NCBI GenBank assembly: GCA_032622095.1
Contig: CP136061.1
Location: 20,896,991 to 20,960,990 of the forward strand
Direction: 5' to 3'
Source of the DNA: Siphonodentalium dalli
Taxonomy: Eukaryota > Mollusca > Scaphopoda > Gadilida > Siphonodentaliidae
Length of the DNA stretch: 64,000 nucleotides
Part shown: positions 1,091 to 62,754 of the stretch, in pieces
Numbering within the stretch: the first letter of the stretch is position 1
How the letters are laid out: each line of letters begins with the position of its first letter
Position numbers and translations under genes: made by a program
The notes under the pieces: model-generated
Seen by the model: the letters and a program-made list of their open reading frames with translations, nothing else
The model's database searches: none
Told to the model about the DNA's origin: nothing

Positions 1091-1283
1091 TTTGAGGCCA
1101 ATTTAGTGGTGCTAAATTGGTAAGTGGATTTTTAACAGGAACATGACATACCTCTGTTTTCTTTATGTTTGCCAGTTCTTCCTCCTGGTACGTTAAAGGA
1201 GCTGGAGCTTTCTCAGACTCTATATGTTTCTTGTATCCAGAGTGAGAGACATCACTCTGTAAGAGAGAATAGATTATCTTTTA

Positions 1284-1467
1284 TAACCCTTTCATAGTGG
1301 GAGCTGAGATGGTGCAGCATTAAAGATCATGTGCCAGTGCATTCTCTTATATATGCACTGCTTACAAGGTCAAGGTAAATATTGTTATACAAATGCATTC
1401 TCTTATATATGCGAGGCATCCTATGGGAGACTCATATATATAAGAGAATACATTAGCACAGGGTTAA
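1284..1467. mobile_element. Small TIR element with remnants of the 'gcattctcttatatatgc' hairpin
   Basis: The left end is 'taaccctttcatagtgggag' and the right end 'cacagggttaa'. Inside are 'gtgcattctcttatatatgc' and a second imperfect hairpin at about 1393-1455. The left end resembles, in reverse orientation, the right end at 55160-55205 ('ctcccgtcatgaaagggtta'), so both belong to one TTAA-associated family. This copy is degenerate. Confidence 0.55.
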
Positions 1468-2900: not shown

Positions 2901-3290
2901 TTAACCCTTTACCCAACAAACCGGCCAAAACCGGCCAAATAAAGCTAAAATATCTTCGGTCTGTCTAAATAGAACCATACACATATGGATATCATTGGAA
3001 CCGGCTCCTTGACCACATTGTGATAGTTACAGTTATGCCCTGTGCCAATGCATTCTCTTATATATGCGAGTCGACCATAGGTCGCCTCGCATATATAAGA
3101 GAATGCATTGGCCTAAACAAAATCTTTTTTTAACACTTTTTATCATTGGTTCTTACATTCTTTAACAATTTTATAATTTTTAATGTGTTAAGCCAATGCA
3201 TTCTCTTATATATGCGAGGCGACCTATGGTCGACTCGCATATATAAGAGAATGTATTGGCACAGGGCCGTTCTGTTGGGTAAAGGGTTAA
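2901..3290. mobile_element. TTAA-flanked MITE, family A (copy 1), two hairpins
   Basis: It is bounded by TTAA on both sides with termini CCCTTTACCCAACA and its inverse TGTTGGGTAAAGGG. TTAA duplications plus CCCT-type termini suggest a piggyBac-type non-autonomous element. It carries two 67-nt hairpins, at 3045-3111 and 3193-3259, which are inverted copies of one another. No transposase is present. Confidence 0.9.
3045..3111. repeat. 67-nt hairpin module (representative copy)
   Basis: A 26-nt arm beginning ccaatgcattctcttatata pairs perfectly with the opposite arm. An inner six-base pairing (tcgacc with ggtcgc, one mismatch) closes on an ATA loop. Near-identical modules lie at 3193-3259 and in the other family A copies (3621-5999, 39494-39885, 58651-59954), and also at 55391-55457 and 61620-61686 inside elements with different termini. 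Confidence 0.95.
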
Positions 3291-3620: not shown

Positions 3621-4019
3621 TTAACCCTTTACCCAACAAACCGGCCAAAACCGGCCAAATAAAGCTTCAACAGCCTAAAATATCTTCGGTCTGTCTCAAT
3701 AGAACCATACAAATATGGATATCACTGGAACCGGCTCATTGACCACATTGTGATAGTTACAGTTAGCCCTGTGCCAATGCATTCTCTTATATATGCGAGT
3801 CGACCATAGGTCGCCTCGCATATATAAGAGAATGCATTGGCCTAAAAAAAATCTTTTTTTAACACTTTTTACCATTTTTTCTTACATTCTTTAACAATTT
3901 TATAATTTTTAATGTGTTAAGCCAATGCATTCTCTTATATATGCGAGGCGACCTATGGTCGACTCGCATATATAAGAGAATGCATTGGCACAGGGCCCTT
4001 CTGTTGGGTAAAGGGTTAA
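3621..4019. mobile_element. TTAA-flanked MITE, family A (copy 2)
   Basis: It has the same termini and two hairpins as copy 1, with TTAA at 3621-3624 and 4016-4019. The paralogous repeat at 44083 lacks the insertion, which supports mobility. Confidence 0.9.
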
Positions 4020-4584: not shown

Positions 4585-4984
4585 TTAACCCTTTACCCAA
4601 CAAACCGGCCAAAACCGGCCAAATAAAGCTTCAACAGCCTAAAATATCTTCGGTCTGTCTCAATAGAACCATACAAATATGGATATCATTGGAACCGGCT
4701 CCTTGACCACATTGTGATAGTTACAGTTATGCCCTGTGCCAATGCATTCTCTTATATATGCGAGTCGACCATAGGTCGCCTCGCATATATAAGAGAATGC
4801 ATTGGCCTAAAAAAAATCTTTTTTTAACACTTTTTACCATTTTTTCTTACATTCTTTAACAATTTTATAATTTTTAATGTGTTAAGCCAATGCATTCTCT
4901 TATATATGCGAGGCGACCTATGGTCGACTCGCATATATAAGAGAATGCATTGGCACAGGGCCCTTCTGTTGGGTAAAGGGTTAA
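4585..4984. mobile_element. TTAA-flanked MITE, family A (copy 3)
   Basis: TTAA at 4585-4588 and 4981-4984. Nearly identical to copy 2, as expected from the tandem duplication, with two 67-nt hairpins. Confidence 0.9.
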
Positions 4985-5624
4985 AAGCAGAGTCTATTTA
5001 TTGCGAAATTGTTTCATTAGTTTATCGCGGACCTGTAACGAGAAGTAAATATTTCAGACAATGTTTTCTATGGAGTCACCTTGAGAATGCTACATTCCTC
5101 GAGTTGGCATAGCGCTGGATTACTCATTTATCAATTTCACGCACCTGAAAAAGTCCCTAATATTCTTTAAAGGTGCATTCAGGATTCCAACCTATTTTAC
5201 TTTTTATTTAGATTCTAGTGTAGAAAACAACATGTTTGGAACACTAAGTGCTACAAGAAAGACACTACTCTGTTGATACTGAATGTGCAATGCATTTATT
5301 TCGTATCAGTATGATGTATTATAGGAACACCAAAAAATCTTTTTATATGTTTATAGTATATACGTCATTTTTGGTTTTCAATAACAAGCAGAAAATGATG
5401 TTAAATCAATATGTTCATGTTGTTGTTGTTGTTGTAACTGGAGGTCTGGAACCCTTCATGAATGCATCTTTAATGACTGTGAACGCAATTCAAAAGTCAA
5501 TACATTCCAAAACAATTTTTAGTAAAGTCTTCCTGGAAATATTTGATTTGTTGAATCACAGAGAAAATATGTGATGGAATAGCCTGGCATTGAAACTGCT
5601 TTTGAGAAACACAAATTTTGGTGT

Positions 5625-5999
5625 TTAACCCTTTACCCAACAAACTGGCCAAAACCGGCCAAATAAAGCTTCAACAGCCTAAAATATCTTCGGTCTGTCT
5701 CAATGGAACCATACACATATGGATATCATTGGAACCGGCTCATTGACCACATTGTGATAGTTACAGTTATGCCCTGTGCCAATGCATTCTCTTATATATG
5801 CGAGTCGACCATAGGTCGCCTCGCATATATAAGAGAATGCATTGGCCTAAAAAAAAATTATAATTTTTTCTTACATTTGTTAACAATTAATATGTGTTAA
5901 GCCAATGCATTCTCTTATATATGCGAGGCGACCTATGGTCGACTCGCATATATAAGAGAATGCATTGGCACAGGGCCGTTCTGTTGGGTAAAGGGTTAA
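5625..5999. mobile_element. TTAA-flanked MITE, family A (copy 4)
   Basis: TTAA at 5625-5628 and 5996-5999 with the same termini. The spacer between its two hairpins is shorter than in copies 1-3. Confidence 0.9.
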
Positions 6000-6488
6000 A
6001 CTGAAGTGGAGTGCTTTCTATCATGAGACTTATCAGACTATACGAAAAATTTGTTGTTACTATATGTTGCATAATTTGGTAACCACAGTGTTATGCCTGT
6101 ATGTATATGTACATGTACATTATATAAGTCTGTTTTAAGTTTCTCTTTCCAGTTCAACAATTATCAGCAACATTGGAATAATACAGTGCACAAACATATA
6201 TGTGGTTCACCAACAATTCAAACTACAATTTATAATTGATGTGTATGAAAGTTTGGCATCAGAAATGATCCAATAACAAAACAATTTGCAATGATAAAAG
6301 GATATCTTCTTGCCAAGATCCTTGAGGATTCTCACTGGACAGTAGAACTAACTCCTCTGAAAAATATAAAGATATTCTAAGTTAGACTTCAGAAATACAT
6401 GTATCTTATGTTTAGATTGAGTTTATGAAGTTTTACATGTAACTGTAATGAGTGAAGACAAATTATATAACATCGTTAATACACCACT
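6000..6488. other. Unassigned AT-rich intergenic sequence
   Basis: I see no gene or clear repeat here, only short simple patterns such as 'tgtatatgtacatgtacatt'. Confidence 0.5.
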
Positions 6489-7080
6489 GTGCACATGTTA
6501 CAAGGACATATTAATATTAGACCAGGGAAAAGCCCAGAGGGCGACTGCACAAGTTACATGGACATATTAATGTTAGACCAGCGACATACCAGCCTAGATG
6601 GTGACTGTGCACATGATACATGCCATTGTACTAACTTTCTGATATGTTGTCCGTACCTGTGCACACACCACATTACTACAGTGTGAGACTGAGTATCCAA
6701 TAGCCATCCATATGGATATTTTAGTAAAAGTAATCAAATGTAATCATGATTACAGGTACATTTGAAAGTAATCGATTATGATTACGATTACTTGTAATCA
6801 AAAAATGTCATGATTACTGATTACAGGTGATTACTCCAATTTTTGTAATTGATTACTTTGATTACGATTACTGATTACGATTACCCCAACCCTGATACAT
6901 GGACATATTAATGTTAGACCAGGGACCAGCCTGAAGGGTGACTGTGCACATGTTACATGGACATACATGTACATGTATTAATGTTAGACCATGGACCAGC
7001 CTGGAGGGTGACTGTGCACATGTTACATGGACATACATGTATTAATGTTAGACCAAGGACCAGCCTGGATGGCGCCTGCA
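6488..7080 (+). repeat. Degenerate left block of the 58-bp satellite
   Basis: Several diverged copies of the unit 'ggacatattaatgttagacc' plus 'agggaccagcct' occur at about 6505, 6563, 6900, 6960 and 7025. A GATTAC-rich tract (6735-6890) interrupts them. The main array lies at 9833-11626. Confidence 0.8.
6735..6890 (+). repeat. GATTAC/TAATCA-rich cryptic simple repeat
   Basis: Words such as gattac, taatca and attgatta alternate on the same strand in a 150-bp tract with local palindromes such as taatcatgatta. It has no coding sense. It interrupts the satellite copies. Confidence 0.75.
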
Positions 7081-7651
7081 CACATCAAACTCCATGCAGA
7101 GTTTACCTCCCTTGATGTGCACAGTTGCCCTCTAGGTTGGGCCCTGGTCTAACATAAATATGTCTATGTCACATGTGTGCACAATCTCTACCAGATCGCA
7201 CCAGTCATACTTCCTTTCTGACTGTCACCGGCCGGGTACTGGTCTGTGTTTCTATATATAGCATGGGGTTTTCCAGCAAAAATGGCGAAATCTTGTAGCG
7301 AAAACCAATGACAAATTTACTATGTTCTTTGTGAACAATTCCCGCACTAAAACAAATAACGACAGAATGGAAAATAGAGCGGTAGTTTTGATGAAGATTT
7401 TCGCAAGTTACTCGTCAAAATTGCAGCAAATTAGAACTCTTGTGTTTGTCTTGCCGTGCGAGTTGTGACAATGTCATACATGTGTGTTTAGATTTTTATG
7501 TTGATAACATAATCAGAGAACCGAATCACACCATTTCAAAATATAGTTCTTTGGTTTTAGTCGGACTTTTCAAACTTACACAAAAAGTTACACAAATTCT
7601 ATTCGATATTTTGTGTGTTTAACAAGGGCAGCATGTTGTTCTGTTCGCTTA

Positions 7652-9724
7652 GGCCTAAAAAAAAAAGACGTTTGTTTCCGCTAACCCGACCGACCCTATT
7701 TTAAACCCCCGACCCTAAACTTTTTATTGCCATTGCAAAAACAAAAAAAATCGGACCCAAAAAAAACAAAAAACAATTTTATTTTTTTTCAATTTAGGTC
7801 CCAATTCATATCATAACAAGATGCAAAACATTAATATATTTATATATATTGCCATAAGAAATTTAAGTTTACAAAAAGATTTAAGTTTAACAGTTGGAAT
7901 CATACCGTACTGTAAAGTATGTTTGGCTTTATCTAGCTTTCATCTGTGAAAACTTCAAATAGTTTGAGTTCAGGTTTGTTATCATTCAGCCTTCAGGAAC
8001 ATTAACAATTTGATCAAATCAACCTGGTTATCAGGTGGGATATCATAATACCAAATGAAAAATTAACATAGGGATTAGTACTATAAATAGTAATTACTAA
8101 CTTAATAGACATTGTTTCTGTACTACATGATCATAGTCCATTGAACCAAAAGATATCTGACAATATCGTATAAGCATTTCCAATCCATACATATAAAACA
8201 AGAGATCAACTGTCATCCGGTGCATACCCTCTTAGCGCATACCGCCTGATGTGGGCATATCTATAACTTATGATTGCTATACTCAGACAGATGGACCCAA
8301 AAAATCAGCATTTTCATGTAAACAAAGATGAATAACTATAAAACAAAAAACCAAAACAAAACAGTTGAATGTGCCATTAAATGTCCTGATAGTGGTGAAC
8401 ATCCATACAAAATTTCATTGAGATCTGAGCATTACTGTTCAAGTTATGACCTCAGAACAGACGTCGGATGGACCAAACAGCCAACATTTCCAGAAAAACA
8501 AAGATGAATAACTCTAGAATGGAAAAGCGGAACAGAACAATGGAACCCTCTATTGAATGTCCTCATAGTGGTGAACATCCGTACCAAATTTCATTGAGAT
8601 CCCAGCACAACTGTTGAAGTTACGACATGAACAGACACCAGACGGACCAAAAAGCCAATATTTCCAGATAAACAAAGATGTATAAGTCTAGAATGGAAAA
8701 TTCGAACAAAACGATGGAACCCTCTTTTTAATGTCCTCATAGTAGTGAACATCCATACCAATTTTCATTGAGATCCCAGCACAACTGTTGAAGTTACGAC
8801 ATGAACAGACCCCAGACAGACCAAAATGCCAACATTTCCAGATAAACAAAGATGAAACACTCTAGAATGGAAAATCCGAACAAAACGATGGAACCCTCTA
8901 TTTAATGTCCTCATAGTAGTGAACATCCATACCTAATTTCATTGAGTTCCGAGTACTACTGTTCAAGTTATGACATGAACAGACATCGGACGGACGTATG
9001 GATGGACGCACGGACGGACAGTTGCAAAACAGAATACCTCTTCTTTTTTTTAAAGGGGTATACAAAATTTCCAAAGTTATGTTTGAGAAACTTGATCAAA
9101 TTGACCTCTCAGTAAAATTCAAAATACTGACTCTGCCCTAGATTAGCTCTAAATGCAATGGATTTTCAAAAAATTTCCAGGGTGAGAACCCCCACCATCA
9201 GCAGGGGGGGGGGGGGGTCACCCCTCCCAAACCTTCCTCCGCTCAGGCCTTCAGGTTATGCCTTTGGCATATCATTGCCCAAAAACAGGTGTCCTCAAAA
9301 AATACCTAGATCCTTCACTGAATGTGGAGGAGAAGGTGGTGTTCTGAAGCCATCATTAAGAGATCGGTACAAGACGGTCACTCCAATATGTGAACAGTGC
9401 AGTGGTGCTGGACTGACTCCAGTTGTCGCCAGACCATATGGGAAATATTAGGATTATCAAAGACTATATTAGTATATAGACTAGTATATATGTAAACATT
9501 AAAGCATATGTAAGATTGAATTGGAGTTTATAGTTTCTCTGTCATCTGGGTTAACATGATTGGGGCTTAGAAGTGCATAGTTTGGGTTATTGACAAGTAT
9601 TATACAGTTATTTTTAAAAATACTGAAAAAAAAAAAGTTAACCAAAAACAAAAGTTAAGCCTACCTACCTACCCTAATTTTTTTCAGCTCGTTATCGGAA
9701 ACAAACGTATTTTTTTGTTAGGCC
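7652..9724. mobile_element. Harbinger-like non-autonomous DNA transposon with TTA duplication
   Basis: Termini GGCCTAAAAAAAAAAGACGT (left) and GGCCTAACAAAAAAATACGT (right, inverted) each continue into TTGTTTCCG, giving TIRs of about 29 bp. TTA lies on both sides (7649-7651 and 9725-9727). The empty site at 57880-57882 shows a single TTA. A 3-bp TTA duplication and GGC-type ends fit PIF/Harbinger. No transposase reading frame is visible. Confidence 0.9.
8300..8995 (+). repeat. About 175-bp tandem repeat, four units
   Basis: The words 'aatttcattgag' at about 8411, 8587, 8761 and 8935 give a spacing of 174-176 bp. Each unit also has 'aacaaagatgaataactcta' or a close variant, and 'gaacatccatacc'. 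The array ends in 'gacggacgcacggacggaca'-like sequence. It lies inside the Harbinger-like element. Confidence 0.9.
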
Positions 9725-9832: not shown

Positions 9833-11626
9833 ACATGTTACATAGACATATTAATGTTAGATCAGGGACCAGCCTAGAGGAAGACTGTGCACATATTACA
9901 TGGACATATTAATGTTAGAGCAGGGACCAGCCTAGAGGTTGACAGTGCAGATATTACATGGACATATTAATGTTAGAACAGGGACCAGCCTAGAGGAAGA
10001 CTGTGCAGATATTACATGGACATATTAATGTTAGAACAGGGACCAGCCTAGAGAGCGACTGCACACATGTTACATGGACATATTAATGTTAGACCAGGGA
10101 CCAACCTAGAGGAAGACTGTGCACATATTACATGGACATATTAATGTTAGAACAGGGACCAGCCTAGAGGAAGACTGTGCACATATTACATGGACATATT
10201 AATGTTAGAACAGGGACCAGCCTAGAGGTTGGCAGTGCAGATGTTACACAGACATATTAATGTTAGACCAGGGACCAACCTAGAGGAAGACTGTGCACAT
10301 ATTACATGGACATATTAATGTTAGAACAGGGACCAGCCTAGAGGTTGACAGTGCAGATGTTACACAGACATATTAATGTTAGAACAGGGACCAGCCTAGA
10401 GGTTGACAGTGCACATATTACATGGACATATTAATGTTAGAACAGGGACCAGCCTAGAGGTTGACAGTGCAGATGTTACACAGACATATTAATGTTAGAA
10501 CAGGGACCAGCCTAGAGGAAGACTGTGCACATATTACATGGACATATTAATGTTAGAACAGGGACCAGCCTAGAGGTTGACAGTGCACATATTACATGGA
10601 CATATTAATGTTAGAACAGGGACCAGCCTAGAGGTTGACAGTGCAGATGTTACACAGACATATTAATGTTAGAACAGGGACCAGCCTAGAGGAAGACTGT
10701 GCACATATTACATGGACATATTAATGTTAGAACAGGGACCAGCCTAGAGGTTGACAGTGCACATATTACATGGACATATTAATGTTAGAACAGGGACCAG
10801 CCTAGAGGTTGACAGTGCAGATGTTACACAGACATATTAATGTTAGAACAGGGACCAGCCTAGAGGAAGACTGTGCACATATTACATGGACATATTAATG
10901 TTAGAACAGGGACCAGCCTAGAGAGCGACTGCACACATGTTACATGGACATATTAATGTTAGACCAGGGACCAGCCTAGAGGAAGACTGTGCACATATTA
11001 CATGGACATATTAATGTTAGAACAGGGACCAGCCTAGAGGAAGACTGTGCACATATTACATGGACATATTAATGTTAGAACAGGGACCAGCCTAGAGGTT
11101 GGCAGTGCAGATGTTACACAGACATATTAATGTTAGACCAGGGACCAGCCTAGAGAGCGACTGCACACATGTTACATGGACATATTAATGTTAGACCAGG
11201 GACCAGCCTAGAGGAAGACTGTGCACATATTACATGGACATATTAATGTTAGAACAGGGACCAGCCTAGAGGAAGACTGTGCACATATTACATGGACATA
11301 TTAATGTTAGACCAGGGACCAACCTAGAGGAAGACTGTGCACATATTACATGGACATATTAATGTTAGACCCGGGACCAACCTAGAGGAAGACTGTGCAC
11401 ATATTACATGGACATATTAATGTTAGAACAGGGACCAGCCTAGAGGAAGACTGTGCACATATTACATGGACATATTAATGTTAGAACAGGGACCAGCCTA
11501 GAGGTTGGCAGTGCAGATGTTACACAGACATATTAATGTTAGACCAGGGACCAACCTAGATGAAGACTGTGCAGATATTACATGGACATATTAATGTTAG
11601 AGCAGGGACCAGCATAGAACGCAACT
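9833..11626 (+). repeat. 58-bp satellite array, about 31 units
   Basis: The unit is 58 bp with the core 'ggacatattaatgttagaac' then 'agggaccagcctagag'. Three tail variants alternate: gaagactgtgcacatatta, gttgacagtgcagatgtta and agcgactgcacacatgtta. In 10330-10870 a three-unit cycle of 174 bp repeats about three times, which is a higher-order pattern. There are no unique spacers and no open frame through the array. Confidence 0.97.
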
Positions 11627-26953: not shown

Positions 26954-27726
26954 TTAACCCTTTGAACCCGAGAGACCGGAATACCGGTCCAATCCTTATA
27001 TTCCTATATCCCGGGAGACCGGAATACTGGTCCGGAAATCAGACTATATTTGACACGAAATTACAGCTCAATAAACGCACATATCAACTATAGTTGTACT
27101 TCTACTTTGCACACACGTGTCACATGTTTACCCAAGTGACTTTGATCGACAAACTGACAACAGAGGGTTTGTTTCTTTGCGCATGCGCAGAGGCCTATTT
27201 TGAGGGGAAAAAAACCCCCGCTTTTTATCGTCGGAAAAGGGGAAGTATTTCGTTAAAAATTTCGCGATCAAAGCCCAAATTAACTAGAATAGTGCTTCTA
27301 TACTTTGCGCGAATGAGTGACATGTTCATACCTCTGATTTTAGTAGCCAAATTGGAAACAGGGGGTCTGTTTCTTCGCTCAAGCACACAGGTGCATTTTG
27401 AGAAATGCGTTATTTTGTAGGCAAAGTGTAAGAATTTCGTTATAAATATATAGTGCGACCAAAGGAAGCCGCAATATATCTATATACATGTACATGTATA
27501 TTGAACGTGGAATAGACTGTCTCGTTGAAATACATTGTGACATATTTCACCGCACACTAGTCTTGTTCAGTTAGCATAGTAGATTGCCGTATATACTGAG
27601 CGTGTATACATGTATATACGTCCCAATTAAGAGCTTTATGAGTTACGTCGTCGGAACACTATCTAACGTCAGGCGCCTCGGGTTGGGGTCATTTAACGTT
27701 CAGGACGTCAGGGTTCAAAGGGTTAA
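26954..27726. mobile_element. TTAA-flanked element with CCCTTTGAACCC ends, nested
   Basis: TTAA at 26954-26957 and 27723-27726, with termini CCCTTTGAACCC and GGGTTCAAAGGG. The interior has repeated 'gagaccggaatac' near the left end and two diverged copies of a 'tactttgcgcgaatgagtga'-like segment. It belongs with the CCCTTT-ended elements but has its own termini. Confidence 0.8.
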
Positions 27727-28633
27727 TAATGCCAATAAAACCACACAAAATAAATCAAATTGCATTGGAGATTGATAAAGTTGGGAATATCGGTAAGAAT
27801 TGTTGTTTCCCCACCCGCACTATTATTTGGGTCACTCAGATAATTCTTACCTACCTGTACCCTGCATCGCAACTAAAACTGATATGCATTCTCATGTAGG
27901 TTTATCATCGACCTATGTCTATATGCATGCATACGTCGATGGGTCAACATGTATACATGCACGATGTTTCAAATCGTAAAATAAAAATAAATCCTATAAA
28001 GTTTAACGACAATAAACAGAGTCGAGGGTAAAAACTAAATTAGGTCGGATATATAGGATTTTCTAAGGAAGACGTTACCGTCTATCAATATCTATTGGTT
28101 ATACGGAGACGAGAAAAAAAATTCCACTCAAGAGATAGTTTTTGATGACTCAGACACTATTGGCAAAAGCATATTATACACATGGACAAATCACTATTGG
28201 CAAAAAAACATCATCGTCAATAATAAGTAAATAAAATAACCACAATAAATGAAGATTTCTTCAGTGTCCTTTGTTTTTTTCCAGCGCAAATTGTCCGTTA
28301 AAATCACCGCGGTATCGCGAACTGTGACCGCATGCATCGTGGTGTCACCGCGGTATGCGTGGTGTTGAAGCGTTAATAAGCGGTATCAGTACCACGGTAT
28401 TGGGGATACCGCGGTATCATACTGCGGTATTAACGGGGTGACACCGAGTTATAGATGGTCAATTACTTTAAGTATAACGGTACTCAATCCTAGTGACCTA
28501 TGGCCAGCATTGGTCTCTGCATTGAAAACTCTACAAACTCATCAAATCCGACCCCCAATTTGAATATCTAGTATGTCCTCATTATTTAATTCACATTGAA
28601 CTCAGTACTACATGAGTATCAATTCTCTTCCAG

Positions 28634-28728
28634 ATTTGATTGTTCAAGCAAAGTCAGGCACAGGGAAGACATGTGTTTTTACCGTGATCGCTCTGGAATC
28701 AATAGAATGTAACTCCACTGCAACCCAG
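28634..28728 (+). CDS. DDX20: DDX20 exon 2 (Walker A, motif I)
   Basis: This exon encodes residues 63-94. It follows the acceptor ttccag and begins by completing an Asp codon, giving the run [16 protein letters not shown]. Motif I, AKSGTGKT, lies at residues 68-75 and binds the ATP phosphates through Lys74. The exon ends on a codon boundary after a Thr-Gln pair, exactly where vertebrate DDX20 continues into its motif Ia strand. The donor is gtaacc. Phase and sequence agree with exons 1 and 3. Confidence 0.93.
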
Positions 28729-28849
28729 GTAACCTTATATAATGCTGTTCATATGCTATCTGATATTATAACTGAAAAATTTGTTACATTCCCTTTTTAT
28801 ACAATCCGTTTGAAAAAAAACCGGCCGTATTTAATATGTGATTGGTCTG

Positions 28850-29168
28850 TCTGTCTGTTCAGCCGTCCATCCATCCATTAGTAGTTTTGGTTTCCAGATG
28901 ATAACTTTAGTTTGGGTTAATTTATCGGAACTAAATTTGGTATGTCAGTTTTCCAGACCAAATTACAGGTCGATTTCAAATTTGGGTTCGTTCCGATTGT
29001 TTTGTACTGACTTGTGGCTCTTTTCGACTTAGAATTTTCAAAATTTGATGTTTCCGGATGATGACATTAGTTTGGGTTATTTTATTGGAACCAAATTTGG
29101 TATGTGAGTTTTTCCAGACCAAAATACAGACCTAGTTCGATTATGGGTTTGCAGACATTTTTTACTGA
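28850..29168 (+). repeat. Dispersed intronic repeat, two tandem half-copies
   Basis: The words 'gataactttagtttgggtta' and 'gatgacattagtttgggtta' mark two diverged copies (28895-29035 and 29050-29168). Both are preceded or followed by 'ctgacttatggctc'-like sequence. Related sequence occurs at 47660-47900. The left edge has 'ccgtccatccatccatt'. Confidence 0.7.
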
Positions 29169-37315: not shown

Positions 37316-37609
37316 CACTATTTGCAGGCCTGTATGTCGCAGACATCATCACAATGGGAGCTAGCCAAAGTTGCCATAAGTTCTACTCTCAGTAGAGGTC
37401 ATCCCTAGAATTCACTTCCACAAAAAATATATGTAAGTGAGCTATAAGGCTGATTCCATCATTAGAGTATAAATACCATAAAAAAAAGGTCAGACTCGGT
37501 CAAAACAGATAAAAATAATATGTTTATCGGAATACCATCTCATCAATAATTTCATTATCACATGCCAATATAGTGCAAAGAATTGTACTTTCCAATATTT
37601 TATTCACAG

Positions 37610-37752
37610 CTGGGTTTACAATGCTCTGCCAGAAAATAAGCAGATTTTGGCGCTCTCTGCAACATACCCAGAATACCTAGCTCAACATCTCACCAAATAC
37701 ATGAGAAATCCAACCTTCATCCGACTCAACATCTCAGACCCAGCGCTACTAG
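37610..37752 (+). CDS. DDX20: DDX20 exon 5 (motif III SAT)
   Basis: This exon covers the last base of codon 188 to the first base of codon 236. The acceptor is ttcacag. It reads [20 protein letters not shown], where SAT at 204-206 is motif III, coupling ATP hydrolysis to unwinding. It then reads [20 protein letters not shown], a linker region well conserved in DDX20. The exon ends inside a Gly codon, and the donor is gtatgc. Confidence 0.93.
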
Positions 37753-38704
37753 GTATGCTAATTAATCACATTTTTGCTCAGGATTAATTTGATTGAGATT
37801 TATAATTTAAGTCATAGGATTATCTGGCAAGAGGTAAGTTCTTTATGTGGTTTGGTGGTTATGCTTAACTTTTTGCTTCTGGTGAATTTTTTTTAATTTG
37901 ATTGTTGTTTATATAGTGTAACTTATGTCTGAAGAGAGGAAAAAAATACACCCTTTGAGAATATACTTGATCCTTTGTTGTTACGACTTTTTGCCAGAGC
38001 TATTTCGTTGAATTTTTTGTCAAGATGAGACTCTCTAAAGTACACTTACTAGATCAACAGGAAATTCCAGAGACATAACACTTTCCCCAATAGCTATTCT
38101 TAAAATGTCTTATTCTCAAGAGCCATCAGACCTATTCAGCTTATATTTGATATGGATGTTCCTTGGGATTCAAATTTGTTCAAATGGGGTCACCGGGTCT
38201 AATAAGTACATGTCTTTCCCCTGTAGTAATTCTTAAAAAGTCTTCTCCTCAAGAGCTATCAGGTCTATTTAGCTTATATATAGTACGGAGGGTCCTTGGG
38301 TGACTAGGATACAGATTTTTGAAAATGGGTTCGACCATTCAAGAAATGGTGTTTGGTGTGTAGAATCCATGGATACCTTGGTTTCATATATGTTTAAATG
38401 GGGTCGGCCATTAAAAATGGGGCATGTCAGGTTGGAACTTTCCAAACGTTGGGAAAGCTTGATGTATCAGTTGTAAAATTCCAACTGATGTATCAGTTGT
38501 AAAATTCCAACATGACGGGGATGTGCACAATGAATTGTACAAACTTGGGAGTTTACTCCAGTAGGAGGGGACAGGCTATTGGCTACGTAGAGGGGGTGGG
38601 GGACACCAGGGTTAGCAGTGTGCACTTTTCAATTTCAAGGTGGCCACCCCACCTCTCAACAGAGGATCTCTAGCTATGTCCCGGGTTTAGAACTACTTGT
38701 TATC

Positions 38705-39493: not shown

Positions 39494-39885
39494 TTAACCC
39501 TTTACCCAACAGAAGGGCCCTGTGCCAATGCATTCTCTTATATATGCGAGTCGACCATAGGTCGCCTCGCATATATAAGAAAATGCATTGGCTTAACACA
39601 TTAAAAATTATAAAAAATTGTTAAAGAATGTAAGAAAAAATGGTAAAAAGTGTTAAAAAAAGATTTTTTTTTGGCCAATGCATTCTCTTATATATGCGAG
39701 GCGACCTATGGTCGACTCGCATATATAAGAGAATGCATTGGCACAGGGCATAACTGTAACTATCACAATGTGGTCAAGGAGCCGGTTCCAATGATATCCA
39801 TATTTGTATTGTACCTTATGAGACAGACCGAAGATATTTTAGGTTGTTGAAGCTTTTTTTGGCGGTTTGTTGGGTAAAGGGTTAA
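39494..39885. mobile_element. TTAA-flanked MITE, family A (copy 5), next to 5' splice site
   Basis: TTAA at 39494-39497 and 39882-39885. The orientation is opposite to copies 1-4. It has both 67-nt hairpins (39527-39593 and 39675-39741). It starts 11 nt after the end of DDX20 exon 6. Confidence 0.92.
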
Positions 39886-46688: not shown

Positions 46689-46715
46689 GTGAGTCACCAC
46701 CTATTATGTTTAACG

Positions 46716-46929
46716 TTAACTCTTTCAGTGCCAAGTCCGATTTTTGTATCAACCCATATTTCCTTGATCATTTTTCAAATTTATTGATTATAATAATGTG
46801 ATACATTGATGGAAAGAGCTCTAGAGCTCTTTCCATCAATGTATCACATTATTATAATCAATAAATTTGAAAAATGATCAAGGAAATATGGGTTGATACA
46901 AAAATCGGAGTTGGCACTGAAAGGGTTAA
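46716..46929. mobile_element. Near-perfect 214-bp palindromic TTAA element, intron 9
   Basis: TTAA at 46716-46719 and 46926-46929. The two 107-nt halves are inverted copies with about two mismatches, centred on gagctctagagctc. The outer ends read 'ctttcagtgccaagtccgat'. The same ends occur at 62574-62754, and the related 'cagtgccagg' ends at 61278. It begins 27 nt after exon 9. Confidence 0.92.
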
Positions 46930-53900: not shown

Positions 53901-54847
53901 TGCTGAATTCAGATGGTTTGTTAGATCAATCTGATCCGGTACCAAGTCACATACCTACATCTCCTGTGTGCACTGGAACATTAACATGTGATGCGAGTAC
54001 CAGCACAGATATCAGCCTGCTCCTGTCTTATATAGAAAGTTTGAAAATGAGTGATTCGCTATCGGCCAACATTCCTAAGATTCTGTCACATGATAGAGTT
54101 GAGGAAGTTCCTGAACTTGAAATTCCGGAATATAGAGTTCCTGAAATTAAGCTTGATATTCCAGAATATAAAGTGCCTAACCTTGAAAACTTTACGAAGC
54201 CTTTGACGATTGACATCATTGAAGATGATGGGTGTGATGAGAGTTTGTGTAGTATCACACCAGGAAGTGTCGACTTGGCCGAGTTCCACTATAACAGTGA
54301 TAGAATGAACGAGTTGGACAAAGTCACCGAAGAACGCAATACAGAAAATTCCAAAGCTGAAGATGTGAAAGGTGAGAGTAAGGAAAAGAATAGAAGATCA
54401 AGAAAAAAGAGAAAAGAAAGGAAGAAATGGAAGTTTAATGAACAAGAGCAGATGCCTTATTATGATGGTTATGACCATCCGCCTATATACCGATCATTCC
54501 ATACCAGCCACGATTTCTCCAGAAGAGATAGAGAGGATCATTTTTGTCCGAATATGTGGTGTCATCACCAGCCAAGTGCTTGTGATAGGTACTCTGCAGC
54601 ATCACATGGTCACATGACCAGTTCTCGAGGCTATGGAAGTATGGAAGAATGTTTGAACAACTACAACAAGATGTGGGAAGGTTGGAGAAAGAATTATGAG
54701 GAGTATTATAATTATTACTATGGCAACGAGAACTGTGATGCTGAGGAGGAGAAACAGTCTCAAAAATCCAATCAGAATCTCCGTGTGCAGACTGATTACA
54801 TCAAGATGATGAATATGGGAAAAGGGAAGCATTCCTCAAAGATGTGA
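50982..54847 (+). CDS. DDX20: DDX20 exon 10 (giant C-terminal exon, PAM2, tail)
   Basis: A 3866-nt terminal exon encodes residues 398-1685 without interruption. It follows the acceptor ctttctttcag and starts VPVTSEILKSEP. The tail is rich in Asp, Glu, Lys and Ser. From the N side it has acidic Ser/Asn-rich sequence, an RDEMPEISPE-type decapeptide array (about 650-760), a helical hydrophobic stretch IVTNIITDALSNAVAIAV (about 845-862), a PAM2-like motif LNPDAPEFKP at 911-920, a short DQxGFT triple repeat (about 1078-1099), a PEYRVPEI/PEYKVPNL pair, a basic cluster RRSRKKRKERKK (possible nuclear signal), and an aromatic C terminus WEGWRKNYEEYYNYYYG (from about 1629) then TDYIKMMNM. The aromatic end resembles the YWRAYYRAWQEYY region of human DDX20, which supports that the exon belongs to this gene. 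The stop is TGA at 54845. No AATAAA was found in the next 1 kb. Confidence 0.9.
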
Positions 54848-54945
54848 TCTGTGCTTGTTTCATGTTGAGCATCAGATGATGTTTTTGATTTTTTTCGTTT
54901 TATGTTGAAGGCCTTTCAAACACTGAATTATCTTGGCCAGCCATT

Positions 54946-55205
54946 TTACCCTTTTATCACTGTAGCTTCCTGAAATTATGCGAAAACCATGTGCCAATGT
55001 ATTCTCTTATATATGCAAGTCGCCCATAGGGAGTCTCGAACATGTAAGAGAATACATTGGCCTAACAATATTTATATTAAGCCAGTTCAGTCTCTGATAT
55101 ATGCGAAGTTCCCAATGGGAAACTCGCATATATACCGGTAAGAGAATGCCCTGGCACAGGATCTTTAATGCTGCACCAGTGCTGCTCCCGTCATGAAAGG
55201 GTTAA
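54946..55205. mobile_element. TTAA-associated element with two degenerate hairpins
   Basis: The right end reads 'ctcccgtcatgaaagggtta' with TTAA at 55202-55205. The left end is degraded ('tttacccttttatcactg'). Inside are two diverged versions of the 67-nt hairpin (about 54992-55059 and 55083-55155). It lies just downstream of the DDX20 stop and may fall in its 3' UTR. Confidence 0.65.
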
Positions 55206-55323: not shown

Positions 55324-55591
55324 TTAACCCTTTGAGTGCCAGGCCCTTTGAGTGCCAGGTTGTTTTTTGTATCAACCCATATACCCTGTGCCAATGCATT
55401 CTCTTATATATGCGAGTCGACCATAGGTCGCCTCGCATATATAAGAGAATGCATTGGCCTAACTTTATTATTTATTTATTTATTTTTTTTAAATTTTTTT
55501 ACAATTTTAATAATTCATTCTTATATTCTTAACAGACTTATTTTGTATGTTTAGGGCCGATGAGATCGGCCCCTGGCACTCAAAGGGTTAA
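55324..55591. mobile_element. TTAA-flanked element, CCCTTTGAGTGCCAGG ends, one hairpin
   Basis: TTAA at 55324-55327 and 55588-55591, with ends CCCTTTGAGTGCCAGG and CCTGGCACTCAAAGGG. It carries one 67-nt hairpin at 55391-55457, identical in design to that of family A. The first 16 bp are repeated in tandem at the left end. Confidence 0.92.
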
Positions 55592-55996
55592 GTCATTATT
55601 GGGGATATTTTGTCCATATGTAAGTATTTCATCTATCTGTCCACCTATTTTCATCCCTGGAACATGAAAAAGTCAAGAGATTACTAGGCTTACTTTGAGG
55701 CCTGATTATGATTAGTCCAAGATTCCTTTGACGTAAACCAGCTAGTGAAATCGGTTTAATAATACTGGTTCACTTTTATGTTAAATTACACACCGAATAT
55801 GCCATGTAATTAGGGAGGAACTCACTTTTGATCCGTGTTTGTTTACGTTTACTTTGCAAACATTGTGATAAATATATTTTCTGCATTAAGTTACTACTTT
55901 CAGTTGACAACTCTGGTGGAGTTATGTTTTCTATGGAATAAACCTGGTTGCTTTCACATTTGTGACATTTCATTACAGTCATTGATTTATGCTTAA

Positions 55997-56579
55997 AGGG
56001 ATACTGTACTCAAAATGTTGTTGTTGGTTTCTATAGTCTCCGAGTCGGAGAATAAGGTAACAATTTTTCCATTAATTGAATGTCTGTTGAGTACGAAGTA
56101 GTGTTACGGATGGCAAATTTACCGGAATGCAAAAATACAAATTGTAGTTGTTGAGTAATTTTTGTACAGTTTTCAACCAAATGAATCAAATAAAAGTTAT
56201 ATTATATGCATACTAGTCCCATATAATCATTTCAGTTATTGTATCGTCGCTAGTCAGTGAGTGGCTTGAGTGTTCTCCCTGTATCATCATAATATTTTAA
56301 GCGATCGTGTGTGCGATCAGTTTAACAATCCAGTATCCCTCAATTACTTTATTTGATTACGGAAATTCGTAATTTAATTGACGCCATTTTATGGCTCCAG
56401 TCATAAATTCAATTTATATCAAATTATTAACTTTTAAATTATTAAATTTTAAGATAGCCTATTAACCTGAGCTTTTACAGAATACATCTTCGACTCAAAT
56501 TACTAATGTTTCTATATATTATCGATATTAGATCGTTGTTGTCACCGGAAATTTAATGAAAATGGCGAACAGTACCCCT
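55997..56579. mobile_element. TTAA-flanked element, family C (second copy)
   Basis: TTAA at 55993-55996 and 56580-56583. Ends AGGGATACTGTACTC and ACAGTACCCCT are related to those of 12367-13002. The interior shares 'tggctccagtcataaa' with the first copy in inverted orientation. Confidence 0.85.
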
Positions 56580-56884
56580 TTAAAGTCCACTATAGAAAGG
56601 GACAGGGAGAATGCTTGGAGATAAACCAGTGTTATCGCTACCGATTTCACTAGCTGGTTTACGTCATAACCAGTGTTATCCTTATTCACTAGCTCACTTC
56701 GAATGAAGCTTGGACTAGTTTATGATATGTTTTAGATTTTGATAAATTATTGGTGGTGGTCAAAGACAGATTTTACAATAAAAAACCTAGAATTCATGCA
56801 CAAAAGTCAGACCTGTCAAATTTGTTTTTACCTTTACAATTCTCATGAAAGAATTCTTCGATCCATGATGTCAGATTTATGATA

Positions 56885-57060
56885 TAGAGAATACCTACGA
56901 GTTTTGGTTGAATACCCGAATTATCTCATGAGTGGGTGCAAGGAAGTACAGAATTTCCACGAGCGGCTTGCAGCCGCGAGTGGAAATTCTGTAAGTCCTT
57001 GCACCCACGAATGAGATAATCCGGGTATTCAACCAAAACCCGTAGGTTTTCTTTTTATTA
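56885..57060. repeat. Long palindrome around 'ggcttgcagccgcgag'
   Basis: Arms of about 75 bp ('gggtgcaaggaagtacagaa', 'gaatttccac' and inverses). A diverged relative is at 46935-47105. Confidence 0.9.
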
Positions 57061-57447
57061 TATGCGCTATAAACCGCACCAAAACTGCTAATTTTGTCCT
57101 ACAGTTCACTTCAAATTGTTAGAAAGCTTCGACATTTGCATTTTGTTTACATTCCATCAATTGATTTGCTCACCACTGAATGATAAATATCGAGCATAGC
57201 CGCCATAAGAAATAGTCCCCATTGTTTTATTCTGAAATGATGCGAGAAAATTAATGTATACATAATTTAGTGATAAGAATATATTAAAACAAATGAGTTA
57301 ACATTATAACAATTAAATAACAGTTTATGAACCGTGAAAATCAATAATTAAAACAATATATAGTCCGGCTGTTATTGATACGCTTTGAAACTTAATGTGA
57401 TTCGCCGCTATAAACCGGAAGTGATCTCCGAAAAAGTAATACTATTG

Positions 57448-57520
57448 TGTTATCCATCGAGTCGGTCAGTGTTATCCATCGAGTCGGTCAGTGTTATCCA
57501 TCGAGTCGGTCCAGGCGATG
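57448..57520 (+). repeat. 24-bp tandem triplet
   Basis: Three direct copies of 'gttatccatcgagtcggtca' with short linkers. Confidence 0.9.
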
Positions 57521-57779
57521 GATATAACGCTCTACGCCACGGCAATTTCCCACTATGTAATGGGGAAGCATATAATAAAACCATGTATTTTTTAAATTAA
57601 TATTTTTATGTGATAGGTCTGTGGTTGGTAAACAGTAAAATCAGTGTTTCAAAGGGCTTTAAATTCTATAGGAATGTTCCCATCCAAATTGTTCACTCTG
57701 TGGGTACAAGTGGGTAGGCATAAATTAATATTATGTTCACAGACGTTGACAAGTCATAGATCGTTTCTCAGGGAAAGCT

Positions 57780-58340
57780 TCCATGCAGGGTTTACCTCCC
57801 TTGATGATTCGGTAAGACTGCTGCTACTGGCGACATTTTACCCACATTAGGTGGACTTCCGCGATATTAAAATATATACTAAGCGAACAGAGAAACATGC
57901 TGCCCTTGTTAAGCACAAAAAATCGAAAAAAAATTGTATACATTTTGGACATTATATTTGTAAAGTCCCACTAAAACTGAAGAACTATATTTTGAAACGG
58001 TGTGATTCGGTTCTCTGATTATTTTATCAACACAAAAGTATAAATATATGTCATTGTCGCAACTCGAACGGCAAGTAAAACACAAGAGTTCTAATTTGCT
58101 GCAATTTTGACGAGTAGCTTGCGAAAATCGTCAACAAACCTACCGCTCTGATTTTCCATTCTGTCATTCTGTTTTAGTGTGGGAATTTTTCTCAAAGCAC
58201 ATAGTAAATTTGACTTTGGAGCGATCGGGTTTCGCCATTTTTGCTGGAAAATCCTATTCTAAATATAGAAACACGGACTAGTACCCAGTCGGTTACAGAG
58301 TCAGAAAGGAAGCATGACTGGTACGCTCTGGTAGATATTG
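57780..58340 (-). repeat. Uninterrupted copy of the 7187-9826 repeat (empty site)
   Basis: This is the reverse-orientation partner of the 7-kb repeat. At 57880-57882 it has a single TAA (TTA on the other strand) where the other copy holds the 2.07-kb Harbinger-like element. Confidence 0.88.
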
Positions 58341-58479
58341 AAAAGCTTCATCCCCAAAATCCTGTGCCTCTCACATATTTATGACCTGCCTTGCATAAAT
58401 AAATAAATATTTAAATACTGCACGTCCAAATTCATGGTCAAATTGACAACACACAAAATGCACCAATGCCTTATTTCTA

Positions 58480-58572
58480 TAAAATTTCATAACTCATTTC
58501 TTTATAGAGCAATTCATGACATGAATTGCTATATAAAGAAATGAGCTGTGAAATTTTATGAATTTCATGTAT
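58480..58572. repeat. Palindrome 'aaatttcataactcatttct'
   Basis: Arms of about 40 bp around 'gcaattcatgacatgaattgc'. No gene lies in this stretch. Confidence 0.85.
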
Positions 58573-58650
58573 ATTGCATATACCAGTGAAAACCCTGTTG
58601 AAAAAATAGTTTGGTGGCTAGTAGTATTTAACCCTAAATGGAGAAGATGT

Positions 58651-59049
58651 TTAACCCTTTACCCAACAAACCGGCCAAAACCGGCCAAATAAAGCTTCAA
58701 CAGCCTAAAATATCTTCGGTCTGTCTCAATAGAACCATACAAATATGGATATCATTAGAACCGGCTCCTTGACCACATTGTGATAGTTACAGTTATGCCC
58801 TGTGCCAATGCATTCTCTTATATATGCGAGTCGACCATAGGTCGCCTCGCATATATAAGAGAATGCACTGGCCTAAAAAAAATCTTTTTTAACACTTTTT
58901 ACCATTTTTTCTTACATTCTTTAACAATTTTATAATTTTTAATGTGCTAAGCCAATGCATTCTCTTATATATGCGAGGCGACCTATGGTCGACTCGCATA
59001 TATCAGAGAATGCATTGGCACAGGGCCCTTCTGTTGGGTAAAGGGTTAA
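58651..59049. mobile_element. TTAA-flanked MITE, family A (copy 6)
   Basis: TTAA at 58651-58654 and 59046-59049, with the full two-hairpin layout and single-base differences in the stems. Confidence 0.92.
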
Positions 59050-59618
59050 GAGGCCGAGGTTATACATAATTTTATAGATGAAGTTTCCATGTATTCCTGA
59101 GTAATACTGTATGTATGTATGTAATGTATCAACACAATTTTCATTACACTTCTGTGAATTTTAAATTTCTGGTAAATGTGATGGCCACAGATGTCTGTGC
59201 TGAATGGAGGACTCCAATAATTATCTTGCATAAAAATATCTTCCTCCTCACAAAAATAAGTTGACATAAAAAAAAAAAAAATTTCCTGCCTCCCTCATCA
59301 CATTGAAAAAGAAATTCAGTGAGAAACAACTATTTTGTTTATCTGCCCTAAATTATTGGCCAAAAGCAATTATTAGTTTTTTCCATTTCTTTGTCAACGA
59401 TGGACAAAACAAAAGCAATAGTTTCTGCTGAAGTGATTTTCTTTGAATGTCAGATTCATTATGTACTGTTTACTGTTAACAGAAATAATATCTTGAACTG
59501 TTTCCGTAAAATGAATAATGTTTTTTTTTTATTATGATAACTGCAATATATTCATCAGGATAAAAATGTATTTGGTTTTCTTTTCTAATTTAAATTTGAA
59601 CAATTTTCCCTATATTTG

Positions 59619-59954
59619 TTAACCCTTTACCCAACAAACCGGCCAAAACCGGCCAAATAAAGCTTCAACAGCCTAAAATATCTTGGGTCTGTCTCAATAG
59701 AACCATACAAATATGGATATCATTGGAACCGGCTCCTTGACCACATTGTGATGGTTACAGTTATGCCATGTGCCAATGCATTCTCTTATATATGCGAGTC
59801 GACCATAGGTCGCCTCGCATATATAAGAGAATGCATTGGCCTAAAAAAAATCTTTTTTTAACACTTTTTACCATTTTTTCTTACATTCTTTAACAATTTT
59901 ATATATATAAGAGAATGCATTGGCACAGGGCCCTTCTGTTGGGTAAAGGGTTAA
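59619..59954. mobile_element. TTAA-flanked MITE, family A (copy 7), one hairpin lost
   Basis: TTAA at 59619-59622 and 59951-59954. The second hairpin is reduced to its outer arm ('atataagagaatgcattggc'), apparently through an internal deletion between palindromic sequences. Confidence 0.92.
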
Positions 59955-60139
59955 GTGACCCCCACAGAAGGAGAGGTAGACATGAGAATATGGCTGAACA
60001 ATGAATTGTTTCATGCAAAATATTCTTATATGGGTCATACACAATACCACATTTGATTATTAATAAATTTCTGTTATCTAGTCATATGGCACCTTATTCA
60101 ATTCAAATGTTTGGGTCAAACACGGACTGCTGTCTCAGT

Positions 60140-60310
60140 ACAGTAATGCTCTAAATAGTCGACTCCTTAACCACAGCAGGATTTAGTCAGAAATATAGCT
60201 CACTGAGAGGTTTCCGATGAATTGGAACAAGCCATATTTCCGACTAAATCCTGAAAAATTACCAATAATTCTGCTGTGGTTAAGGAGTCGATTATTTATA
60301 ATAATAATAA
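60140..60310. repeat. Palindromic repeat with 'ccttaaccacagcag' arms
   Basis: Relative of 43829-43965. The arms pair from 'gtcgactccttaaccacagc' to 'ctgctgtggttaaggagtcg'. Confidence 0.8.
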
Positions 60311-60869
60311 TGACCAGTTTTATATAGCGATTAACCAATTACTTGCTCTAACACGCTTGGTACAATATTACCCCAGTCATTTGTACAAGCCAACCAATTA
60401 CTGGCATTACTGTACCTTGAAGTAAAGAAAAGGCTATTTTTTTTAATTTATACAAGATTGACAAAATTTTTTGACAGAAGTCACTGGTTAGATTGCAGGC
60501 TTCATCTTTTATTTACATTTTGTTCTTATGTTTTCTCATATTGAAGGGACTCACGGCACTCACGGTGGATAAATGTGCACAAAAATATATGTTAAAACAT
60601 CACAAAGAAGAACATGGAGAAATAGATAAACGTGTTGAAACCTTTGTTATGTAAACAAAACATGTTTCAGTTATTTATAAACAAACATGATTTTCAGAAT
60701 ATTTTTCAATGGTTTGAGTTTTTCAATGTTTACCGTCAAGTATTGATTAAACTTGGTATTTTATTGGATTTGTATCGTTAATTCCATTGTAACAGCAATG
60801 TTTACATAACAATGGTTTGACATCAGAGAGTTATTAACAATGAAAATAAGAACAAATTCTAACTATTTT

Positions 60870-61110
60870 TAGCTCAACTTAACTTGTAAAATTTGAGCTA
60901 TAGCCATGGCTTGGTATCCGTCATCCGTGTGTGCGTGTGTGGAGACATCTGTCAACAATTTCCATTAGCACATGCTACAGATTGTACCTTTGGTCGGATC
61001 ATTATGAAATTTGTCATGGCTGTTCACATTGACATGTAGATGGAAACGAGTCATTTTGGGTCATTAGGCCAAAAAACATGGCCACCAGCTGCCATCTTTT
61101 ATTTCAAAAT
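60870..61110 (-). repeat. Dispersed repeat, inverted partner of 1-400
   Basis: It shares 'gccatggcttggtatccgtc', 'caacaatttccattagca' and 'aaatttgtcatggctgt' with the start of the window in opposite orientation. Confidence 0.75.
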
Positions 61111-61277
61111 TCAATTCATCTTTCAATTTATTGCTCATCACAAAAATGTTTACTTCTTCGCAAAGTTGAGATACAGTGTCATGTACACTTTCATTCATGT
61201 ATCTGTTGATGATAGTTGTTTTACAAACTTTTTTTTTTTTTTTTCACATTTACCCGCTGCGAGTGCCTTGAGCCCCT

Positions 61278-61738
61278 TTAACCCTTTCAGTGCCAGGGGT
61301 CGATCTCATCGGCCCTAATTTACGGTCTGTAAAATCGGCCCTAAAAAAATAAAAATCAAAAAAAAATTGGGTTGAATTTTTTTGGGTATGCTTAAGCATG
61401 CTATGGCGAATTTAAAAACAAACTGGATAAAACCTTAGGGGCATGTTATAACTCAAAACTATCACCAAGTATTCATAGTAATAAGTTTGATGCCCATGAA
61501 AAACGTAAGATTCCCTGGCACTAAACCTACAAAATAAGTCTGTTAAAGAATATAAGAAAAAAATATTAAAATTGTAAAAAATTCTAAAAAATAATAACAA
61601 TTGATGAAAAATTGTTAGGCCAATGCATTCTCTTATATATGCGAGGCGACCTATGGTCGACTCGCATATATAAGAGAATGCATTGGCACAGGGTATATGG
61701 GTTGAAACAAAAATCGGACTTGGCACTGAAAGGGTTAA
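61278..61738. mobile_element. TTAA-flanked element, CCCTTTCAGTGCCA ends, one hairpin
   Basis: TTAA at 61278-61281 and 61735-61738. The right end reads 'gacttggcactgaaagggtt'. It carries one 67-nt hairpin at 61620-61686. Its ends match elements that have a different centre (46716-46929 and 62574-62754). Confidence 0.9.
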
Positions 61739-62573: not shown

Positions 62574-62754
62574 TTAACCCTTTCAGTGCCAAGTCCGATT
62601 TTTGTATCAACCCATATTTCTTTGATCATTTTTCAAATTTATTGATTATAATAAAATGATACATTGATGGAAAGAGCTCTTAGAGCCTTGGTACAATAAT
62701 GATCAAGGAAATATGGGTTGATACAAACATCGGACTTGGCACTGAAAGGGTTAA
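62574..62754. mobile_element. TTAA-flanked palindromic element, same ends as 46716
   Basis: TTAA at 62574-62577 and 62751-62754, with ends 'ccctttcagtgccaagtccg' and inverse. The centre is partly deleted compared with 46716-46929 ('gatggaaagagctctt' then a jump). Confidence 0.9.

Follow-up and report, generated by a model that had tools for sequence, protein, structure and literature searches.

Gap filling and fork stalling and template switching followed by transposition (FoSTeST) have been described for terminal inverted repeat (TIR) transposons (PMC8277862, sections available). In the accessible part of PMC3627910, the target sites of Sola2 elements are given as AWWT, and some Sola2 elements are described as differing in their 3' parts while being nearly identical in their 5' parts. 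The ends of piggyBac and piggyBat hold palindromes of 14-19 bp that are bound by the C-terminal domains of the transposase (PMC11707139, excerpts). How families of miniature inverted-repeat transposable elements (MITEs) with new ends or new centres originate is an open question. Here we describe a near-perfect palindrome of 70 nt, flanked by CCCTGT on its 5' side and by CTAA on its 3' side, in the scaphopod Siphonodentalium dalli. It was studied in a window of 64,000 nucleotides (the whole stretch of DNA that was analysed: assembly GCA_032622095.1, contig CP136061.1, positions 20,896,991 to 20,960,990, forward strand) and by genome-wide searches of 2.227 Gb in 9 contigs.

At least four families of small transposons without genes (MITEs), named A, BC, D and E, carry this hairpin. 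Several end types, two target-site classes, an identical consensus in three families, chimeric copies and rearrangements at the palindrome were directly observed. On balance, these are probably explained by a shared MITE core that template switching or crossover transferred from one end type to another and that was then amplified by the transposase of each end type. A first-pass annotation of the window had proposed a module shared between different elements, and this is supported by the differing ends, by the TTAA and AWWT target sites and by two chimeric copies.

The conserved unit measures 69-70 nt, with CCCTGT upstream and CTAA downstream, and contains a single T.C mismatch and an ATA loop. 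It had been annotated as a 67-nt hairpin flanked by 'ccctgtg'; the hairpin stands, while its size and flanks are corrected here. The reference copy is:

55384..55463, + strand: shared unit, CCCTGT + 70-nt palindrome + CTAA

Folded as RNA the hairpin reaches -55.1 kcal/mol (z -13.0) and as DNA -36.1 kcal/mol (z -13.4), and since 0 of 200 shuffles were equally good in either case, the fold lies far beyond chance. Its orientation is kept, because CCCTGT (with at most one mismatch) was found upstream in 131 of 141 sampled full hairpins and downstream alone in none. CCCTGT on both sides of the hairpin is a minority arrangement genome-wide. The hairpin is located within about 25-160 bp of an element end, and where hairpins of the same class are adjacent, CCCTGT points outward in 44 of 45 pairs. 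Exact-match scans for the hairpin arm in IMG/VR and GTDB contigs gave no match, and a literature search, mostly made without full texts, recognised no published description of the hairpin.

The A, BC and D ends read CCCTTT...AAAGGG or near it, which is the CCC...GGG form of piggyBac-type elements, and all three families display the TTAA target-site duplication of piggyBac-type MITEs. TTAA was present on both sides in 27/30 cases for A, in 10/16 rows for BC (one element appears twice and two rows are without hairpin; L002 and L005 are probably copies of one insertion) and in 3/5 cases for D. The E family, a further host detected beyond the window, has GTGACCC ends and a target site other than TTAA. 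Identical flanking 4-mers occurred in 10/16 of its rows, with L095 giving two rows, and all were AWWT (AAAT, ATTT, ATAT), the 4-bp duplication of Sola2-type MITEs. Judged by sequence, three host families thus appear to be of piggyBac type (TTAA, CCCTTT-like ends), and the fourth (GTGACCC, AWWT) appears as in Sola2-type elements. Elements with CCCTTTGAGTGCCAGG ends and those with CCCTTTCAGTGCCA ends (the GAGTGCCAGG and CAGTGCCA types) are assigned to one family, BC, because their inner ends and AT-rich spacer match by eye. Three distinct end types had been annotated; two of them (GAGTGCCAGG, CAGTGCCA) therefore merge, and the E family is added from outside the window. The Helitron 3' end has no target-site duplication and a hairpin near CTRR at one end only. 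In the families described here target-site duplications are present and the outward hairpins are paired, and Helitron or IS200/IS605-like hairpin ends were ruled out for the families overall by the target-site duplications.

The 141 full hairpins are a non-random sample with duplicates removed, obtained from 168 hits by dropping those whose start lay beyond query position 4 or whose end lay short of position 64. According to their left flanks they were E (44), A-right (29), A-left (27), BC (16), D-left (10), D-right (5) and other (10), with loose boundaries between the classes. These family proportions are not random, because loci L001-L008 and L029-L076 were taken from the start of contig 1 for their exact matches to the arm, and L077-L096 were picked by the exact TTTTACCC pattern. 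In a random set of twenty 10-kb loci, seven contained hairpins, 28 in total (A 9, D 7, E 5, BC 3, other 4). Overlapping loci (L003, L006, L008), copies or tandem repeats (L033, L036, L037, L059, L061) and segmental duplicates (L079, L080, L081, L083) were left out of most counts, while in the chimera classification of 177 hits only L003, L006, L008, L033, L036, L037 and L061 were left out. The contig 1 locus pairs L045/L079, L044/L080, L039/L081 and L067/L083 were 98-99% identical. The first three pairs lay in mirrored order (1.73-2.07 Mb versus 3.35-3.67 Mb), a pattern that points to either a segmental duplication in inverted orientation or a duplicate in the assembly.

Genome-wide, the 20-nt arm (at most 2 mismatches) matched 259,456 times in forward and 258,688 times in reverse orientation, against 2 and 3 matches of the reversed-pattern control; each intact hairpin is expected to give one match of either kind. 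CCCTGT together with the first hairpin half (48 nt, at most 3 mismatches) was found at 154,963 places (control 0). End counts cover the A, E and BC families. They amounted to 109,033 matches for A ends (control 198), 28,488 for the GTGACCC ends of E (control 0) and 18,158 for the BC end joined to the hairpin (control 0). The TTTTACCCTGT pattern matched 92,410 times, a figure in which two mismatches let A and BC contexts in too.

The consensus hairpins of A-left, BC and E were identical at 70/70 positions, and those of A-right and D agreed at 69 and 63-65 positions, respectively. Despite the 70/70 consensus, the left flanks of A-left, BC and E displayed no clear similarity. The D core is often different, reading TCTCCCATAGGGAGC instead of TCGACCATAGGTCGC with pairing retained (among 9 D hairpins, 8 double changes still pair). 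D ends were joined to the D-type core in 9/15 cases, to the canonical core in 4/15 and to neither in 2; among the canonical ones, L022:3410 has a loosely matching end. The T-rich spacer behind the hairpin was compared on hand-named copies against 100 shuffles, and the words were recomputed because an earlier set was partly affected by the mislabelled or chimeric rows L012 and L073. The longest shared words exceeded the control (in brackets) for A/E1 with 24 nt (at most 16), E1/BC with 30 (13), A/canonical D with 26 (15) and E2/canonical D with 18 (13), and barely for E1/canonical D with 16 (14). No sharing above control was found for A/BC with 11 (18) and BC/canonical D with 13 (14), nor beyond shuffled controls for A/E2, E1/E2 and E2/BC. 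Thus, the shared core extends past the hairpin in some family pairs only.

Two chimeric copies join parts from different elements, as in FoSTeST-like template switching. L073 combines a BC left end, a canonical hairpin and an E core, and is truncated on its right side. This order of BC end and E core gave 68 pattern matches genome-wide, versus 6,567 for the E-type left flank; seven of the 68, L073 included, share a length of 173-175 bp and are located on five contigs, the flanks having been read in L073 only. In the second chimera, L011:9344-9413, an E end is joined to a D-type hairpin and spacer inside a 520-bp tandem duplication. In its palindrome, position 24 carries an E-like base and the sequence is D-like from position 30 on, so the junction fits inside the hairpin. 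In addition, a single hairpin is flanked by CTGT on either side at about 650 exact loci, which look like the two inverted hairpins of one element merged with loss of the spacer. One of these, C1:1989427-1989503, lies between two A ends (C1:1989297 and C1:1989529) and is the only one of them with checked flanks. Together, the two chimeras and the fused-looking loci point to recombination at the palindrome. An inversion of the core in place was also considered. The 1,285 flipped cores are largely explained by a single hairpin with CCCTGT on both sides, since among the flipped-core places listed up to C1:113.3 Mb, 27 of the 34 compared coincided with both-sided CTGT loci.

Divergence was compared in a pool of non-seed copies with full-length ends, D excluded. 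Singletons numbered 47/4098 in hairpins versus 24/1783 in ends (p=0.52), and all differences 53/4098 versus 33/1783 (p=0.12). By class, hairpins versus ends gave 22/1315 versus 9/684 in E (n=19), 13/1468 versus 7/608 in A-left (n=21) and 12/1035 versus 0/315 in A-right (n=15); outside the pool, D gave 28/481 versus 25/294 on the left and 20/206 versus 8/132 on the right. The first-pass annotation had offered selection on the hairpin as one option and had proposed a comparison of the arms with the surrounding MITE; selection is not supported for individual copies, and a greater conservation of the hairpin is absent from the pool, BC alone (n=4) behaving in the opposite way. The hairpin mutates about as fast as the ends, which argues against individual copies being constrained, as those of a working microRNA would be. 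Once inserted, most copies appear to be free to decay, and the identity between families must therefore reflect recent exchange or selection on source copies. Selection on the source copies of each burst may remain compatible with such decay. Ongoing gene conversion or purifying selection on copies was rejected. A lower hairpin divergence seen initially was biased by copies chosen for exact arms, and a second comparison without them (49/4455 versus 69/2735 singletons, p=8e-6, with BC and E accounting for the difference) was biased by foreign or T-tract flanks. The difference was gone in the pool once full-length ends were required, and only BC retained it.

Within the window, hairpins were located by blastn of 55390-55459. 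Copies of 100% identity were detected at 55390-55459 (CCCTTTGAGTGCCAGG ends), at 59772-59841 and other places (CCCTTTACCCAACA ends) and at 61618-61687 on the minus strand (CCCTTTCAGTGCCA ends), and decayed copies at 1392-1457 (88%), 54993-55062 (86%) and 55081-55155 (73%). This bears out the first-pass annotation, which had described a near-unchanged hairpin in three end types, degraded copies in a fourth (D) and CCCTTTCAGTGCCA ends with another centre (46710-46929 and 62574-62754). The span 55391-61686 given there is only part of the picture. The CCCTTTACCCAACA elements of the window carry two inverted hairpins. In total, the window contains seven A elements, four BC elements, of which two have one hairpin and two have none, and two D elements whose hairpins are decayed. 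BC ends therefore exist both with and without the hairpin. All seven A elements have two hairpins in inverted arrangement, the second being reduced in one of them to the remnant 59903-59924. The host elements have TTAA flanks and start with CCCTTT or near it, the two D-type copies being partly mutated there. They are:

2901..3290, + strand: A-type MITE (TTAA-CCCTTTACCCAACA), hairpins 3044-3113 (+) and 3192-3260 (-), TTAA on both sides
3621..4019, + strand: A-type MITE, hairpins 3773-3842 (+) and 3921-3989 (-)
4585..4984, + strand: A-type MITE, hairpins 4738-4807 (+) and 4886-4954 (-), flanks common to its neighbours, within a tandem duplication
5625..5999, + strand: A-type MITE, hairpins 5778-5847 (+) and 5901-5969 (-)
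39494..39885, - strand: A-type MITE, hairpins 39524-39592 and 39673-39742, about 1.7 kb downstream of a DDX20-like exon
58651..59049, + strand: A-type MITE, hairpins 58804-58873 (+) and 58951-59019 (-)
59619..59954, + strand: A-type MITE, full hairpin 59772-59841 and remnant arm 59903-59924
55324..55591, + strand: BC-type MITE (CCCTTTGAGTGCCAGG ends, left 16-mer doubled), single hairpin 55390-55459
61278..61738, - strand: BC-type MITE (CCCTTTCAGTGCCA ends), single hairpin 61618-61687
46710..46929, + strand: BC-type ends without hairpin, near-perfect palindrome throughout, 107-nt arms, 98% complementary
62574..62754, + strand: BC-type ends without hairpin
1270..1467, - strand: D-type MITE, decayed hairpins 1392-1457 and 1333-1356, CCCTGT directly on TTAA at one side
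54940..55205, + strand: D-type MITE, two decayed hairpins 54993-55062 and 55081-55155

The A elements in 3621-5999 border a tandem duplication of about 1 kb, whose repeat is 98.7% identical over 531 bp; the middle element (4585-4984) shares its left flank with the third element and its right flank with the first. The DDX20-like exon is located at 37482-37787 (best PDB match 2oxc, E 5e-15), and a DEAD-box fragment at 28600-28881 scored E 4.5e-05, below the Pfam cut-off. The D-type MITE at 54940..55205 begins about 100 bp past the stop of a 1298-aa open frame (region 54847-55205). This frame had no Pfam match and may be the last exon of the DDX20-like gene. At 26954-27726 there is a further probable TTAA element, which measures about 770 bp, has CCCTTTGAACCC ends and lacks the hairpin, and a tandem array of 58-bp units in about 31 copies occupies 9833-11618. 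Outside the window, L020 contains at 1896-8641 a dense array of TTAACCC / GGGTTAA motifs, spaced mostly 170-185 bp and running in one orientation, then in the other.

For the exchange of a shared core, the following sequence of events is proposed. The hairpin is the conserved part of an internal core (CCCTGT, 70-nt palindrome and T-rich spacer) located just inside the ends of several non-autonomous MITE families. A long palindrome is a natural site of fork stalling or breaks, and the hairpin may thus invite breaks or stalled replication. Repair could then switch among the many copies and join the core to new ends, and each new combination would be amplified by the transposase recognising its ends. 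The hairpin would then need no function in each copy, and its abundance would make it the likeliest partner of the next exchange. More specifically, and only tentatively, the palindrome core may cross superfamilies with different target sites by recombination and not by transposition of its own, being favoured since palindromes break and the commonest copy repairs them.

Several observations weigh against core exchange. Direct exchanges are few, with two clear chimeras among the 177 classified hairpin hits, and the other off-diagonal rows, when read, were attributed to ends that had been mislabelled or to T-rich spacers of similar appearance. The 68 BC/E1 matches include 59 with approximately the E spacing and unread left flanks, L073 being the only match that was read. 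In L011, the base at position 24 could be a private mutation of a D copy, and the junction could be a plain unequal crossover between neighbours. Six of the 16 E rows lack identical flanks. BC hairpins alone (n=4) were less variable than their ends (0/280 versus 8/176, p=0.0004), and the outward orientation near the ends would fit a selected terminal site as well. The genome contains at least 128 matches to the piggyBac DDE domain (PF13843), many without stops, 116 of 649 first-look candidates having been scored. Several stop-free groups of nearly equal score suggest recent activity of more than one piggyBac family. However, ten stretches upstream of piggyBac transposases (521 bp each, upstream side only) contained no hairpin, and none of these transposases could be connected with the ends of A, BC, D or E; L097 alone reads TTAACCCTTT, followed by different bases.

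A subterminal site that binds the transposase or enhances transposition, and is kept in source copies as an aid to amplification, is the strongest alternative, and we consider it unlikely. The distance from the ends, the outward CCCTGT in 44/45 pairs, the 70/70 consensus across A-left, BC and E and the low variation of BC hairpins are all in its favour, as are the transposase-bound palindromes in piggyBac and piggyBat ends (PMC11707139, excerpts). However, those palindromes measure 14-19 bp, and the hairpin occurs in both TTAA and AWWT families, for which separate transposases would be expected. In addition, BC elements carry the hairpin at one end only or not at all, and it was absent from the ten upstream stretches.

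That the core is itself a small mobile element with CCCTGT...ACAGGG ends, perhaps preceded by a T tract, and was inserted independently into several MITEs appears less probable still. E-like cores, mostly starting with a T tract and ACCCTGT, were found in foreign flanks on both sides in L012, L068, L045 and L086 (in the latter two the T tract is clear on one side) and on one side in L089, L091 and L094, and the window D-type copy with CCCTGT directly on TTAA would fit as well. These cores may be truncations, exchanges or independent insertions. However, no target-site duplication was recognised by eye around them, exact TTAACCCTGTGCCAATGCATTC occurred just 327 times in the genome, and L067 and L093 look like truncated E ends. 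The BC elements without hairpin differ along the whole interior and are therefore not simple empty sites. The suggestion of an independent parasite of MITEs is thus weak. Two related candidates were set aside: retroposition of cores that carry a poly(A)-like tract, examined at L011, L089 and L094, where no target-site duplication was seen by eye, and CCCTGT as the end of an ancestral TTAA element, which the 327 occurrences do not favour.

Common descent, with one old MITE family whose ends diverged without exchange, is improbable. A, BC and D do start with TTAACCCTTT or near it, and several family pairs share T-rich spacer words beyond shuffles. However, the ends are unlike beyond about 10 bp, identical hairpins stand beside unlike left flanks, and chimeras exist. 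Since the hosts use TTAA in some families and AWWT in another, one family with drifting ends, the condition under which the module was to be abandoned in the first-pass annotation, is disfavoured. Most improbable of all is a small-RNA or microRNA-like precursor kept for that role, for although the size, as annotated, and the fold stability fit a microRNA precursor, and plant MITE-derived miRNAs are published, the arms mutate about as the ends do, an Rfam scan of the window at gathering thresholds gave no match, and pairing was not maintained across 111 canonical hairpins (seed copies included), in which the arm changes comprised 56 broken pairs, 13 one-sided G-U changes, 2 unpaired double changes and 0 compensatory ones. 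This is a caution against naming such hairpins microRNA genes from the fold alone.

If core exchange is true, internal parts of MITEs can pass between transposase systems, with palindromes being the place where this happens. With about a quarter of a million copies spread over two target-site classes, the tagged core amounts to a natural experiment that allows exchanges to be read and counted. Compared with known systems, A, BC and D resemble piggyBac-type MITEs in their TTAA sites and CCCTTT-like ends, but unlike typical members they hold one or two 70-nt palindromes inside the ends. The subterminal palindromes of piggyBac and piggyBat are also near the ends, but have 14-19 bp, versus a 70-nt hairpin across target-site classes (PMC11707139, excerpts). 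The E family has AWWT duplications like Sola2-type elements, a likeness that concerns the target site. In Pack-TIRs arising by FoSTeST, a template-switch chimera within a TIR transposon is then amplified by its transposase, as proposed here; according to the sections available, Pack-TIRs capture non-transposon sequence, whereas here the core is common to MITEs of different target-site classes (PMC8277862). Foldback4 and other modular MITEs, in the available part of the ModuleOrganizer account (PMC2955051), are likewise palindromic and built of variable internal modules, but Foldback4 is one family with common ends, whereas here the ends differ and the core is common. The hairpin described here is thus a variant of known modular MITE evolution, unusual in that it crosses target-site classes at very high copy number.

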